Below the pieces are notes generated by a model, which saw nothing but the letters and a program-made list of their open reading frames with translations, searched no databases and was not told where the DNA came from. This document shows, piece by piece, positions 225 through 5,750 of a stretch of DNA of 60,917 bases (within the stretch, counting starts at the first letter, position 1; each line of letters starts with the position of its first letter). Both the position numbers and the translations under genes were made by a program. The stretch is from Pseudobdellovibrionaceae bacterium (GTDB lineage Bacteria; Bdellovibrionota; Bdellovibrionia; Bdellovibrionales; Bdellovibrionaceae): assembly GCA_013359135.1 (NCBI GenBank), contig JABWCN010000024.1:1-60917 (forward strand). Reading direction: 5' to 3'.

Positions 225-2096
225 TTGAATATGCAGGCCATGTCTGCTTCACCCTTTGTGGAAATGTCAGCAAAGACAGTTTCTGCAAATCGAGAAACAG
301 AAAAAAGGGATTCTGCTGGTAGTGAAAAAAATTTTGATCAAGTTTTGAATCAAAAAAGTAGTTCGCGGCCAGTAAAAAAGCCGGAGCTAAAGGTAACTGA
401 TAAGACTAAAAAAGATGTGACTATAAAAAAATTCATGGACTCATTCGAGAGTGAATTTCAAGTGCCTCCCACTCGACTAGTGGAAGCCATAAGTCAATTA
501 TCTCCTGCGGAATTGAATGATTCAGCAGAGAAAACAGCTGAAGCTGTCATCGATCAGTTAAATTTAGATCCAAACGAAAGCGTAAAAGCAAAAAGTCAGT
601 ATTTAGATTTGATTCAAAATTTAAATCAAATTTCTGCTTCTGAACAAACATCAGTTTTTATTCCTGATGAATCGATTGTTGGAGGAGTAGGTATTGGCTT
701 GACTCAACAACGCTTTCAAAAAGCAAAAGTTCAAAAAGAAGGACTACAAAAATCAATAGAACAGATGAACCAAAATTTTTGGCAAGGGCAGGGTTTAGCT
801 AATCCTGTAAAAACTGAATTGAGTACAAGTTATCAGACGGGAACGTTGGGAGCTGAAGACAAAGCATTAAAAGCTTCGTCACAAGATATGACTTCTAAAT
901 TAGGCCTAGAGAATTTAGGTCAGAATTCAGCTGATCAGTTTCAGCCTGTTGATGTTGAGGGATTAATGGGAAGAACACCTTATGAAGTTGCCTCATCAGA
1001 AGATATGCAACAGACTTTTGCAAGTCTTGGAGATTTATCTTCAGATTCTAATAATTTCTATGGGAAATTAACGGAAAACTCGATTAAACCAAAGAGTTAT
1101 ACTGAGCAGACAGAAGGAATGGCAATGACTTCCAAGGAGGTAGAGTCATCTAAGACACAGAAAGAGCTTTTAGGTTTGTCTGCTTTGTCGTCAGCAGCAC
1201 TAGAAAAAAAACAAGAAATTGATTCTGCTAGCTTAGAAAATGAGATGGCTACGCCAGACATTTTAAACTCTACCAAAATCAATAAGGCTAACTTTCAGGT
1301 AGCTTCAGGACCGGGACTTTCAGATGTAGTAGCTGAAGCTAATTTGTTTCATCAAAGTGGTTTCAGAGAAAATCAAAGTGGGACTAATTCTAATGAAAGT
1401 TTTTATAGTAAGTCAGTATCTAAAAACTCAAAAGAGACAAAGTCAAAAGGTGATGATTTAAAGACCTTGTTTGCGGCTCAATTGGGAAATGAGGTTGCAA
1501 AATCAGATTTGAAGTCCCATGAAGCTTTGCCGCTCATACAGCCGAGTAAAGCTGAGATGGATCAAAACATTCAGAAAATGATGAATCAAGCTCAGTACCT
1601 TGTGAAAAAAGGAGGAGGGGAAGTCAAAGTTAAAATGACTCCGGAGGGCTTGGGAGATATTCAACTGAAGGTTGAACTAGTGAATGGAAAAGTACAATTG
1701 CAAATGCTGGCTGATAACAAAGAAACTAAGAAAATCTTAGAGTCAAGTCTAGCTGATTTAAAAGATCATCTTAGTTCGCACAAGTTGTCTGTTGAAAGTA
1801 TTAAGATTGACTCTGTCCAGGGAGCTAGTGTCGATGTCGGTACTCGTAATCAAAATTCGTCAGACATGTCGCAGAACCCTCAGTCGCAAGAGCGACAAAA
1901 TCGTCAATTTTGGAATCAATTTCAAGATCAGTTCGGTAGAGGCTCCCAAAGGGAAGCTTTGTTTGAGAATCCTAATGTAAAAACATACGGACAAAAAACT
2001 CAAACTCCAATGGCTCCTGCTGAGGTTACGAATAAGTCTATTCAGAGTGCTTATGTAGGGACTAGTAAAGGAAAAGGAATTAATTTGATCGCTTAA
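225..2096 (+). CDS. fliK: Flagellar hook-length control protein FliK
   Basis: Secreted molecular ruler that fixes hook length and switches export specificity of the flagellar type III apparatus. The protein is 623 residues. The first ~440 are low-complexity, Ser/Lys/Gln-rich and probably disordered, as is usual for FliK. Residues ~450-535 match the conserved C-terminal Flg_hook domain, with GGGEVKVKMTPEGLGDIQLK followed by a helical segment. A Gln/Asn-rich tail follows. An AGGAGA ribosome site at 215-220 serves either the TTG at 225 or, with better spacing, the ATG at 231. flgD follows 91 bases downstream, consistent with one hook operon. The assignment rests on the C-terminal domain plus context; the N-terminal half is not conserved in the family. 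Confidence 0.85.
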   Translation: MNMQAMSASPFVEMSAKTVSANRETEKRDSAGSEKNFDQVLNQKSSSRPVKKPELKVTDKTKKDVTIKKFMDSFESEFQVPPTRLVEAISQLSPAELNDSAEKTAEAVIDQLNLDPNESVKAKSQYLDLIQNLNQISASEQTSVFIPDESIVGGVGIGLTQQRFQKAKVQKEGLQKSIEQMNQNFWQGQGLANPVKTELSTSYQTGTLGAEDKALKASSQDMTSKLGLENLGQNSADQFQPVDVEGLMGRTPYEVASSEDMQQTFASLGDLSSDSNNFYGKLTENSIKPKSYTEQTEGMAMTSKEVESSKTQKELLGLSALSSAALEKKQEIDSASLENEMATPDILNSTKINKANFQVASGPGLSDVVAEANLFHQSGFRENQSGTNSNESFYSKSVSKNSKETKSKGDDLKTLFAAQLGNEVAKSDLKSHEALPLIQPSKAEMDQNIQKMMNQAQYLVKKGGGEVKVKMTPEGLGDIQLKVELVNGKVQLQMLADNKETKKILESSLADLKDHLSSHKLSVESIKIDSVQGASVDVGTRNQNSSDMSQNPQSQERQNRQFWNQFQDQFGRGSQREALFENPNVKTYGQKTQTPMAPAEVTNKSIQSAYVGTSKGKGINLIA

Positions 2097-2187
2097 ACAG
2101 ATTGGATGAAGGTCCTAACTATACAATTGTTGAGTGAAGGACTTTCGTTTTAAGGTTATACTGGTACTAAAAGAAGGGGAGATTTAC

Positions 2188-3195
2188 ATGACAGTGATGG
2201 GATCAAAACTAGGGACCAAGGCTTTTGGACAAACACAAGCCGCACCGACCTCGCAGAATTCAATGGCAAATAATATGTCAGCAACAGACATGAAAAAACT
2301 TTCTGGTGATGATGTAGGTGATGTATTAAATAAAGTTGCAGATCCAAATTGGGTTGATCCATCCAAAAAAATGCGTGCAGTTGGAAATGATAAAATGGAT
2401 AAGGATGCTTTTTTTAAATTGATGCTAACGCAAATGAAAAATCAAGATCCTATGAATCCAATGCAGTCTCATGAAATGGCAGCTCAGCTAGCTAGTTTTA
2501 CTTCTTTAGAGCAAATGCAAAATATGAATAAAACACTAACAGAAATTAGTAATGCCCAAAAACCCTCAGAGCAATTTCAGGTTTTGCAGTTTTTAGGTAA
2601 ATCTGTTGCCGGTGACTCTTCTAAAATTTTCCGAGCTAAAGGAGATAAAGATCATGATTTGCTATTTGATCTTCCAAATAATGCTAAAGAAGTGGAAATT
2701 AAATTAAAAAATGCTGATGGTGATATTGTTAAAACATACAAGCTCAATAATCTGAAAATGGGATCAAACAGAATCATGTGGAATGGTACAGATGAAAAAG
2801 GAACTGTTGTTCCTGAGGGTGAGTATCAATTTAGTGTTGAGGCTAAGAATGAACAAGACAAAAAAATTGCAATTAAAACTGATTTTGAAGGACAAATAAC
2901 AGGTGTTAATTATACCAAAGAAGGTCCTATCTTAATGGTTGGTAATCAGGCTGTAAGACTACGTGATGTGAAAAAGATTGTGGATACTCAATTGGCCGCT
3001 AAAGCCAAATCAGAGCCAATGTCTGTAGATCCAAAGCTAATGTCGCAAGAATCAAAAGCCGCTGATGTCGTCAATCCTCAAGCGCCTAAAGATACCAAAG
3101 GTGGAGCACCTGAGGCCCCAGCTAAGTCTAAAATTTTAGATCAAGTTGGCTTGTCCTCAGAAATGATGGCAAAAATTGCTAAGGAAACTCAATAA
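2188..3195 (+). CDS. flgD: Flagellar hook cap assembly protein FlgD
   Basis: Scaffold that caps the growing hook and guides polymerisation of FlgE. The conserved N-terminal FlgD motif is clear around residues 65-110: MDKDAFFKLMLTQMKNQDP followed by MNPMQSHEMAAQLASFTSLE. A central FlgD Ig-like domain contains GSNRIMWNGTDEKG and VPEGEYQFSV. A Pro/Ala/Lys-rich C-terminal extension of about 70 residues makes it longer (335 aa) than enterobacterial FlgD. The frame is open further upstream to a GTG at 2134. The ATG at 2188 is preferred because AGAAGGGGAG lies just upstream and the upstream residues do not look like FlgD. Confidence 0.93.
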   Translation: MTVMGSKLGTKAFGQTQAAPTSQNSMANNMSATDMKKLSGDDVGDVLNKVADPNWVDPSKKMRAVGNDKMDKDAFFKLMLTQMKNQDPMNPMQSHEMAAQLASFTSLEQMQNMNKTLTEISNAQKPSEQFQVLQFLGKSVAGDSSKIFRAKGDKDHDLLFDLPNNAKEVEIKLKNADGDIVKTYKLNNLKMGSNRIMWNGTDEKGTVVPEGEYQFSVEAKNEQDKKIAIKTDFEGQITGVNYTKEGPILMVGNQAVRLRDVKKIVDTQLAAKAKSEPMSVDPKLMSQESKAADVVNPQAPKDTKGGAPEAPAKSKILDQVGLSSEMMAKIAKETQ

Positions 3196-3212: not shown

Positions 3213-3686
3213 ATGAATCAGGAAGAATCAAATTGGCGAGAGTGTAGTAGCTGCAAAAAAGGGATTGCCTATAATACAAAGTATTACGAGTGTAGTGTTT
3301 CGACATGCAATGGATTCAGAACCGGTTATGTTTTTTGTTCTGTGCCTTGCTGGGAAAGGCATGTTCCAGGCGCTAAACATAGGGATGCATCAGCTATAGA
3401 AAAGATGTCGCCAAAGAAAGAAAACATCCAAGTTCGAAGAATTGTTGCTGGAGCAGCTTCAACACATACCACTTCCGTAGTTACAGGAGCACAGAAAAAT
3501 GTTGATAACGAAATTCTTGTGGTAGTGTCAAAAGTGAAAGCTTATATAAAATCTCAAGCTGACATGAATGTTTCAGATGAAATCATGGAAACTCTTTCAA
3601 CAAGGATTCGTTTTTTTTGTGATGAGGCAATAAAAAAAGCCAGAAGCGATGGTAGAAAAACCGTTCTAGACCGCGATATGAGGTGA
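3213..3686 (+). CDS. Zinc-finger protein with C-terminal bacterial histone fold
   Basis: 157 residues in two parts. Residues 10-56 hold a metal-binding cluster (C11, C14, C27, C32, C42, C46, H50, H56), arranged like a ZZ/MYND/HIT-type double zinc finger. Residues ~100-157 read as a histone fold: SKVKAYIKSQADMNVSDEI, a long central helix, then the diagnostic DGRKTVLDRDM just before the stop. This resembles the single-histone-fold protein of Bdellovibrio (Bd0055 type), but with a zinc finger and a ~40-residue linker added in front. It starts 17 bases after flgD with an AAAGGGAAAG ribosome site, so it is co-transcribed with hook genes. Expected activity is DNA binding, possibly also protein or nucleic-acid contact through the finger. 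The role in motility is unknown. Confidence 0.8.
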   Translation: MNQEESNWRECSSCKKGIAYNTKYYECSVSTCNGFRTGYVFCSVPCWERHVPGAKHRDASAIEKMSPKKENIQVRRIVAGAASTHTTSVVTGAQKNVDNEILVVVSKVKAYIKSQADMNVSDEIMETLSTRIRFFCDEAIKKARSDGRKTVLDRDMR

Positions 3687-3811
3687 AAAAATAAACCTTT
3701 CATCTGGTTAATTTTTTCCCTTTGTTAAAAAAAAAAGTTACAAAGACTAGAAATAAAAAAAATTGTTAGCAGGACTTGAAATAAGAAATCGAAATAAGGA
3801 AGAATAAGATT

Positions 3812-4267
3812 ATGGAAGTGAAAAAAGTAGGTCAGCTAGATACACTGATGCCAAGTAATTCACTTAATAGCTCAGTTAAAAATGGCGTCAATGGTTTAGG
3901 TCCTAACTTCAGAGACACTTTAGACAAAGCTAAGTTGGAAGCTAACCTAACAGCTAAACAAGTTTCTAGCTTTGGTCTAAAGCAAGAGATTCCAAAGTTA
4001 AGTGATTCTGAAAGTGGAGTGAAGTTTTCAAATCACGCTATTGAAAGGATGAGAACAAGAGGAATTAGTTTTAAGGCTGAAGATATCTCAAGACTTAATG
4101 AGGCTGTTGACAGAGCGGCGAACAAAGGTAGTAAAGACTCTTTAATATTGATGAATGATTCAGCGCTAATAGTGAGTGTGAAAAATAAAACTGTTGTAAC
4201 AGTGATGGATAAAGCAGCTTTGAAAGAGAATGTTTTCACAAATATTGATAGCACGATAGTAATGTAA
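3812..4267 (+). CDS. TIGR02530-type flagellar operon protein
   Basis: 151-residue soluble protein whose C-terminal half (residues ~70-151) contains FSNHAIERMRTRGISF, then a region predicted to alternate helix and strand and ending in VTVMDKAALKENVFT. This is the pattern of the small 'flagellar operon protein' family (TIGR02530) found between flgD and flgE in many bacteria. The N-terminal ~65 residues are variable. It sits exactly in that position here, 123 bases before flgE. Its biochemical role is unproven; an accessory role in hook assembly or its regulation is inferred from synteny. Confidence 0.75.
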   Translation: MEVKKVGQLDTLMPSNSLNSSVKNGVNGLGPNFRDTLDKAKLEANLTAKQVSSFGLKQEIPKLSDSESGVKFSNHAIERMRTRGISFKAEDISRLNEAVDRAANKGSKDSLILMNDSALIVSVKNKTVVTVMDKAALKENVFTNIDSTIVM

Positions 4268-4390: not shown

Positions 4391-5674
4391 ATGGGTATTC
4401 TTTCGTCTTTGTACACAGGTGTATCAGGCTTAGCAGCACAGGGTGAAGCTCTGGGAGTTATCGGAGATAATATTGCTAATGCCAACACTGTCGGTTTCAA
4501 AGCCTCTCGTGCAGAATTTCAAGACATTATTTCAAAAAATTTAAAAGGTATTCTTGGTGGAAATCAAATTGGTCGAGGTGTTAAGATTGGAGCTGTTAAT
4601 CCTATATTGATCCAAGGTAATGTCGATGCTACAGAAAAAGTTACAGATTTAGCTATTTCGGGTGATGGTTATTTTAAAGTTAAGGGAAGTGATGGAGAGT
4701 CATTTACAAGAGATGGATCTTTCCATTTTGACAGAGAAGGTCATTTGGTAACCAATGACAATCAAAAAGTCCAAGGTTTTATGACCGATGAGAAAGGAAA
4801 TATTCTGAATAAACTTGGAGATATAAAGTTTCCAAGAGCTATGATTCCAGCTAAAGGTACTTCAGAACTAAAACTGGATTTGAATTTAGATTCTCGAGTT
4901 GAACCAACTAAAAAATTCAATATTGAAGACCCTTATTCTACATCCCATTATTCCACTGGAGTGGAAATGTATGATTCGCAAGGTAATAAACATCTAGTTT
5001 CATTCTTTTTTAATAAAGTAGCTGATAGAAAATGGGAGTATAAGGGTTTAGTTGATGGAAAAGAAGTTACTGGAGGAGAAGCGGGTAAATTAGCAGAGGT
5101 TTGCTCTGGTAAGCTAGAGTTTACAGTAGATGGGAAGCTAGACAAGCAAGAGCTAGTTGATTCAAATTTCAATTTTTCTGGAGGAGCTTTACAGAATCAA
5201 AAAATTAAACTTAATTTTGGAGATGCTATCTCTGAAGGTGGAAAAGGTTTAGAAGGTACCAAACAATATGGTAAAGGTTCTGATTTAATTTCATGGAATC
5301 AGAATGGTGCTGCTGCGGGCACTATCACAGGACTGTCATTCAGTGATGAGGGAATTTTAACAGCAGTTTACTCCAATGGACAGGCAGCCGATTTAGCGCA
5401 AATCTCGTTAGCAAAGTTTGAAAACCCTGAGGCTTTGTTTAAAGTTGGGAATAACAGGTTAAAAGAATCAAGAGATTCTGGTGGGCCATCTATGGGGTCT
5501 CCAGGTGCTGCAGGCCGAGGTAAGATCTATGCTAAATCACTTGAAAGATCCACAGTGGATATTGCTACAGAGTTTGTGAATATGATTCAAAATCAAAGAG
5601 GTTTCCAAGCTAATGCAAAAACGATAACGACAACAGATGAATTATTAAATGAAGTGATTCAATTAAAAAGATAA
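4391..5674 (+). CDS. flgE: Flagellar hook protein FlgE
   Basis: Main structural subunit of the flagellar hook. The N-terminal rod/hook domain is unmistakable (SSLYTGVSGLAAQGEALGVI then DNIANANTVGFKASR), as is the C-terminal FlgE/FlgG helix (FVNMIQNQRGFQANAKTITT ending NEVIQLKR). The middle has the hook-basal-body F/G/E D1 strands (LAISGDGYFKV, TRDGSFHFDREG) and a FlaE-like insert. At 427 residues it is a typical length. A strong GGAGG ribosome site lies 4 bases before the ATG. The gene ends the operon; a rho-independent terminator follows. Confidence 0.96.
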   Translation: MGILSSLYTGVSGLAAQGEALGVIGDNIANANTVGFKASRAEFQDIISKNLKGILGGNQIGRGVKIGAVNPILIQGNVDATEKVTDLAISGDGYFKVKGSDGESFTRDGSFHFDREGHLVTNDNQKVQGFMTDEKGNILNKLGDIKFPRAMIPAKGTSELKLDLNLDSRVEPTKKFNIEDPYSTSHYSTGVEMYDSQGNKHLVSFFFNKVADRKWEYKGLVDGKEVTGGEAGKLAEVCSGKLEFTVDGKLDKQELVDSNFNFSGGALQNQKIKLNFGDAISEGGKGLEGTKQYGKGSDLISWNQNGAAAGTITGLSFSDEGILTAVYSNGQAADLAQISLAKFENPEALFKVGNNRLKESRDSGGPSMGSPGAAGRGKIYAKSLERSTVDIATEFVNMIQNQRGFQANAKTITTTDELLNEVIQLKR

Positions 5675-5710
5675 TAGCTGACTTACTATTTAATTTGGAC
5701 AATTTCTTAG

Positions 5711-5750
5711 ACCCCATTACTAAAAATCTCTGGTAATGGGGTTTTCTTTT
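5711..5750 (+). terminator. Rho-independent terminator after flgE
   Basis: Perfect 10-bp stem ACCCCATTAC (5711-5720) / GTAATGGGGT (5733-5742), with a 12-base loop, followed by a T-rich tract. It ends the flagellar hook operon. Confidence 0.9.

Follow-up and report, generated by a model that had tools for sequence, protein, structure and literature searches.

The window analysed here is a 60,917 bp stretch of DNA (positions 1 to 60,917 of contig JABWCN010000024.1, assembly GCA_013359135.1) assigned to a Pseudobdellovibrionaceae bacterium. Near its 5' end, the genes of the flagellar hook enclose an open reading frame (ORF) for a protein that joins an N-terminal zinc finger to a C-terminal bacterial histone fold. 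This ORF (3213-3686) is a real gene, not a chance reading frame, and its product belongs to the published family of ZZ histones; it does not represent a new kind of protein, and only its address among the hook genes is unusual. The gene, its parts and its surroundings, all on the + strand, are as follows (pLDDT, predicted local distance difference test score):

3213..3686, +, ZZ-histone gene: ATG start, 157 residues, stop codon included; zinc finger, linker and HBb-like histone fold
3243..3380, +, zinc-finger domain: residues 11-56, ligands C11, C14, C27, C32, C42, C46, H50 and H56; predicted cross-brace treble clef, nearest folds ZZ and then MYND/HIT
3429..3506, +, predicted disordered linker: residues 73-98, pLDDT <50, conserved basic RRIV patch
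3510..3683, +, histone fold of bacterial-dimer (HBb) type: residues 100-157, RKTxxxxD motif at 148-155
225..2096, +, fliK-like hook-length gene: named from position and conserved synteny, the family not having been scanned
2134..3195, +, flgD, hook cap: FlgD and FlgD_ig Pfam matches; first listed GTG start, the true start being perhaps further in
3812..4267, +, TIGR02530-family flagellar protein (E 4e-39)
4391..5674, +, flgE, hook protein: 3' of the TIGR02530 gene
5709..5744, +, terminator-like hairpin 3' of flgE

By sequence comparison and structure prediction, the C-terminal part of the protein is a bacterial-dimer histone, with its alpha3 fold and RKTxxxxD motif. A phmmer search against solved structures returned HBb of Bdellovibrio bacteriovorus first (8cmp/8fvx, E 4e-10, residues 100-156), followed by Leptospira HLp and then by an archaeal histone. 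The histone-profile search proposed in the initial annotation gave a divided answer: the Pfam histone model scores the whole protein at 19 bits, below its cut-off of 21.4, and the C-terminal piece alone at 21.4 bits, exactly at the cut-off, so that the family library alone is ambiguous on the histone identity. An AlphaFold2 model of the whole protein (monomer, 19 homologues, mean pLDDT 73, predicted template modelling score (pTM) 0.40) displays a histone fold, with helices at 105-116 and 122-145, a very short third helix and histone blocks mostly at pLDDT 78-90. Both Foldseek (HBb first, at E 4e-4) and VIA-align (Z about 6 over 56-57 residues) place bacterial and archaeal histones on top, and the histone fold claimed for the C-terminus is thus borne out by structural as well as by sequence searches.

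The suggested kinship with Bd0055, the HBb of B. bacteriovorus (PDB 8CMP, 8FVX, 9EZZ, 9F0E), also holds, with 46-50% identity across the histone fold. Using the offset of 97 given by the phmmer alignment, nine of the ten DNA-contact residues listed for HBb in PMC11317129 recur unchanged in the window protein (S106, K107, K109, K113, N119, S121, K149, T150 and R154, corresponding to S9, K10, K12, K16, N22, S24, K52, T53 and R57 of HBb). The remaining one, T8 in HBb, is replaced by V105, and the RD clamp (R51-D58 in HBb) is retained as R148-D155. HBb has neither zinc finger nor linker, whereas the window protein has both; since it reaches 157 residues with finger and linker, it is not a single-domain HBb and is filed as a ZZ histone. 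The window genome also encodes an HBb orthologue of its own, on another contig (L002). The conservation of the contact residues bears directly on the proposal that the protein no longer binds DNA and that its histone fold serves solely to dimerise the finger. The finger is indeed more conserved than the whole protein (mean column identity 60% against 35%, linker included), as such a role might entail, but the near-complete set of HBb contacts and the invariance of S106, R148, T150 and D155 in 83 sequences make this proposal unlikely.

The N-terminal cluster of eight Cys and His ligands stands as first described. The ligands make up a C4 + C2H2 set with the spacing C-x2-C, C-x4-C, C-x3-C and H-x5-H, and the complete set (CCCCCCHH) is kept in 80 of 83 homologues; two of the others carry Asp instead of C42, the fifth Cys ligand (L088:9977-10501 and L099:1712-2317), and the third is an alignment row shortened by the choice of start. 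The published profile of the family (PMC11390915) gives C43 as the fourth C4 ligand; the invariant Cys here is residue 46, or profile position 45 by offset, and a misprint is possible. Although the linker is otherwise variable, its basic RRIV motif is conserved in many ZZ histones of the Bdellovibrionota.

Which treble clef the finger represents is less clear-cut. The ZZ label used here follows the literature and is plausible, the family having been published as ZZ (PMC11390915). A finger-only AlphaFold model (residues 1-72, 81 sequences, pLDDT 82.5, pTM 0.66) retrieves p62 ZZ domains first in Foldseek (probability 0.98, E 0.046), with the ZZ domains of HERC2 and PRT1 and MYND fingers lower down; ZZ domains come mostly ahead of MYND, with every E value at least 0.046. 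On the other hand, the FCS motif and the C-x3-C-x3-H ligand spacing, continued by H-x5-H, are reminiscent of HIT/MYND/FCS fingers, and in Pfam the finger homologues weakly match zf-FLZ (25 members), VATC (21), zf-FCS (20) and zf-HIT (6), all below cut-off, the ZZ model being absent among the matches listed (25 of 32 models). VIA-align yields mixed folds, with all chains at Z <5, and excludes no fold; HIT, MYND and TRASH folds also turn up among the structural matches of Foldseek and VIA-align taken together; a profile search with the finger against PDB sequences gave no match. That the finger is another cross-brace treble clef of HIT/MYND/FCS type, and not a strict ZZ, is consequently a possibility to be entertained with some doubt, and one that is independent of the other readings discussed here. 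The finger's sequence signature thus raises the modest question of whether the ZZ name fits. With the eukaryotic ZZ domains (p62, HERC2, p300) the finger would share the predicted cross-brace, two-zinc fold; comparison with them reveals no significant sequence similarity, and the residues of their H3-tail pocket are not conserved in ZZ histones (PMC11390915).

As first noted, the histone gene sits between flgD and the TIGR02530 gene, its ORF starting 17 bp after the flgD stop codon and ending 125 bp before the TIGR02530 gene; this second spacer (3687-3811) exceeds the 9-18 bp usual 3' of flgD in most other loci. In congeners, fliK and other flagellar genes also lie upstream of the histone gene. 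No terminator-like hairpin was found on the + strand from flgD to flgE, promoter-like matches for a promoter of the histone gene's own are no better than those in shuffled sequence, and the first 6 kb of the window contain no strict sigma-54 pattern. The histone gene is probably co-transcribed with flgD. Its product is 68-77% identical to those of five congeners, and the ratio of nonsynonymous to synonymous substitution rates (dN/dS) is about 0.03-0.09 where dS can be estimated, most dS values being saturated; this purifying selection is comparable to that on flgD.

To place this arrangement in context, 60 genomes were compared, comprising the window genome and its relatives, six of them from the genus of the window. 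A ZZ histone is present in 29 of the 60, including all six of the genus, according to a count made by hand from the match table that includes a few split or fragmentary matches. In each of the six the gene lies directly 3' of flgD, on the same strand and about 8-48 bp away. The 25 flgD loci read from other genera of the family, by contrast, all have TIGR02530 as the next gene, some 9-198 bp beyond flgD, and none of them has a ZZ gene. The order flgD-histone-TIGR02530-flgE, which the initial annotation proposed to check across the Bdellovibrionota, is therefore sustained for its flgD-histone part within the genus and not at the flgD loci of other genera, and the position in the hook operon is not conserved family-wide. 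Among 80 named ZZ-histone loci, with flanks of about 1.5 to 10 kb (some contigs end sooner), FliK, FlgD, TIGR02530 or FlgE occurs nearby in four, all of the same genus (Bdellovibrionaceae MAG-402, UBA2351, UBA2316 and Bdellovibrio sp. 28-41-41); near the other 76, no tested hook-operon gene was detected. A wider hook-operon probe set recovered the identical four loci and matched no further ZZ locus of the relatives.

The six ZZ-histone sequences of the genus form one clade (Shimodaira-Hasegawa-like approximate likelihood ratio test (SH-aLRT) support of 100), and with the position confined to that genus and clade, the most economical account is a single insertion between the genes flgD and TIGR02530 in the common ancestor of the genus. 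Transfer from afar was rejected, as the genus clade sits among Bdellovibrionota sequences in the tree; transfer within the Bdellovibrionota may have occurred, the deep branches being open. Further downstream, a gene matching PF10136 lies directly 3' of the histone gene and before TIGR02530-flgE in genomes G002 and G005:

L036:8621-10579 and L033:6702-8648, PF10136 gene (annotated as a site-specific recombinase), between ZZ histone and TIGR02530

The contigs of G001 and G004 end 3' of the histone gene. The PF10136 gene is found on another contig, a few kb away from a flgE-type match, an arrangement that points to the order seen in G002 and G005, and it probably lies between histone and TIGR02530-flgE in these two genomes as well. 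In the window genome and in G003 it is sited elsewhere. The adjacency of flgD and histone gene has thus been kept while the hook operon was broken downstream.

The reading that we favour, with a probability of roughly 0.8, is that the ZZ histone would be a minor, general DNA-bending dimer, tethered by its zinc finger to some partner and encoded at a borrowed site. The C-terminal histone fold would dimerise, and the dimer would bend DNA through the backbone, like HBb, without sequence preference. The N-terminal finger, carried by the flexible basic linker, would bind zinc and contact a second partner, either protein or DNA, recruiting or restricting the DNA-bending dimer. The gene would have inserted once in the ancestor of the genus and would since have been transcribed with flgD by virtue of its position, so that the data can be explained without any specific part played in hook synthesis. 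Several observations weigh against this reading: the whole-protein model, with its pTM of 0.40, was built for monomers only; the finger remains below every Pfam cut-off; and the adjacency to flgD has been kept in all six genomes despite divergence to 68% identity, a persistence that would fit selective maintenance of co-expression no less than plain inheritance.

In a rival reading, the histone would be a motility-linked regulator in the genus, made together with FlgD and binding DNA so as to couple nucleoid state or flagellar expression to hook assembly. The close, same-strand position 3' of flgD in all six genomes, the lack of a detectable terminator between the genes and the purifying selection are all compatible with this role. 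Against it, the arrangement is restricted to one genus, with ZZ histones elsewhere located away from hook genes, and other genes part the histone from TIGR02530-flgE in G002 and G005. Moreover, flagellar genes are found in 59 of the 60 genomes and a ZZ histone in 29, so that half of the flagellated relatives have none and a genome can carry flagellar genes without the protein. Among 20 ZZ-bearing genomes at greater distance, flagellar rod or hook proteins are present in 16, and the other four, from other groups, gave no rod or hook match, being bins of unknown completeness. We regard a regulator of this kind as quite improbable. The coupling to motility or predation put forward in the initial annotation is not supported beyond the probable co-transcription in the genus, because the flgD-histone pair is confined to that genus and 76 of the 80 loci show none of the tested hook genes nearby; a flagellar role as the family-wide function was rejected on the same restriction of the flgD synteny. 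That the hook operon captured a chromatin protein in this genus, tying DNA bending to a stage of flagellar assembly, appears very unlikely, although such a capture, if true, would make this the first histone to come under the control of the flagellar system.

We know of no established function for ZZ histones. Returning to the favoured reading, in which the protein is a general DNA-bending dimer, the family at large offers no fixed gene neighbour: the largest cluster of neighbours across these 80 loci comprises six loci at scattered distances, a result that led us to reject a conserved non-flagellar partner gene and that argues against most operon-based guesses. A genus with a ZZ histone 3' of flgD, a gene of well-known expression time, nonetheless provides a natural handle on when the protein is made. 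ZZ histones were named, with the same architecture, by Schwab et al. 2024 (Nat Commun, PMC11390915), who report one in B. bacteriovorus and low expression of it in strain HD100; what sets the window gene apart from theirs is its place 3' of flgD in the hook operon of one genus. The main text of that study mentions flagella zero times, and a literature search on histones and the flagellar hook found nothing relevant. Hocher et al. 2023 (PMC10627809) give Bd0055 and Bd3044 as the two histones of HD100; by elimination, Bd3044 would be the ZZ histone of this strain, and it is likewise the second histone-fold protein of its organism, longer and less abundant. A review (PMC11318664) describes Bd3044 as essential, a statement that needs checking, as the available text of PMC10627809 reports deletion attempts for bd0055 alone. 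In two complete genomes from another genus of the family (G010 and G035), the ZZ gene is found in the vicinity of a ClpB-type ATPase and of a PGA_cap gene, away from hook genes. Lastly, bins that carry the labels Binatota, Planctomycetota and Desulforapulum (L087, L104, L107) contain ZZ histones too, for which transfer and misbinning are both possible explanations.
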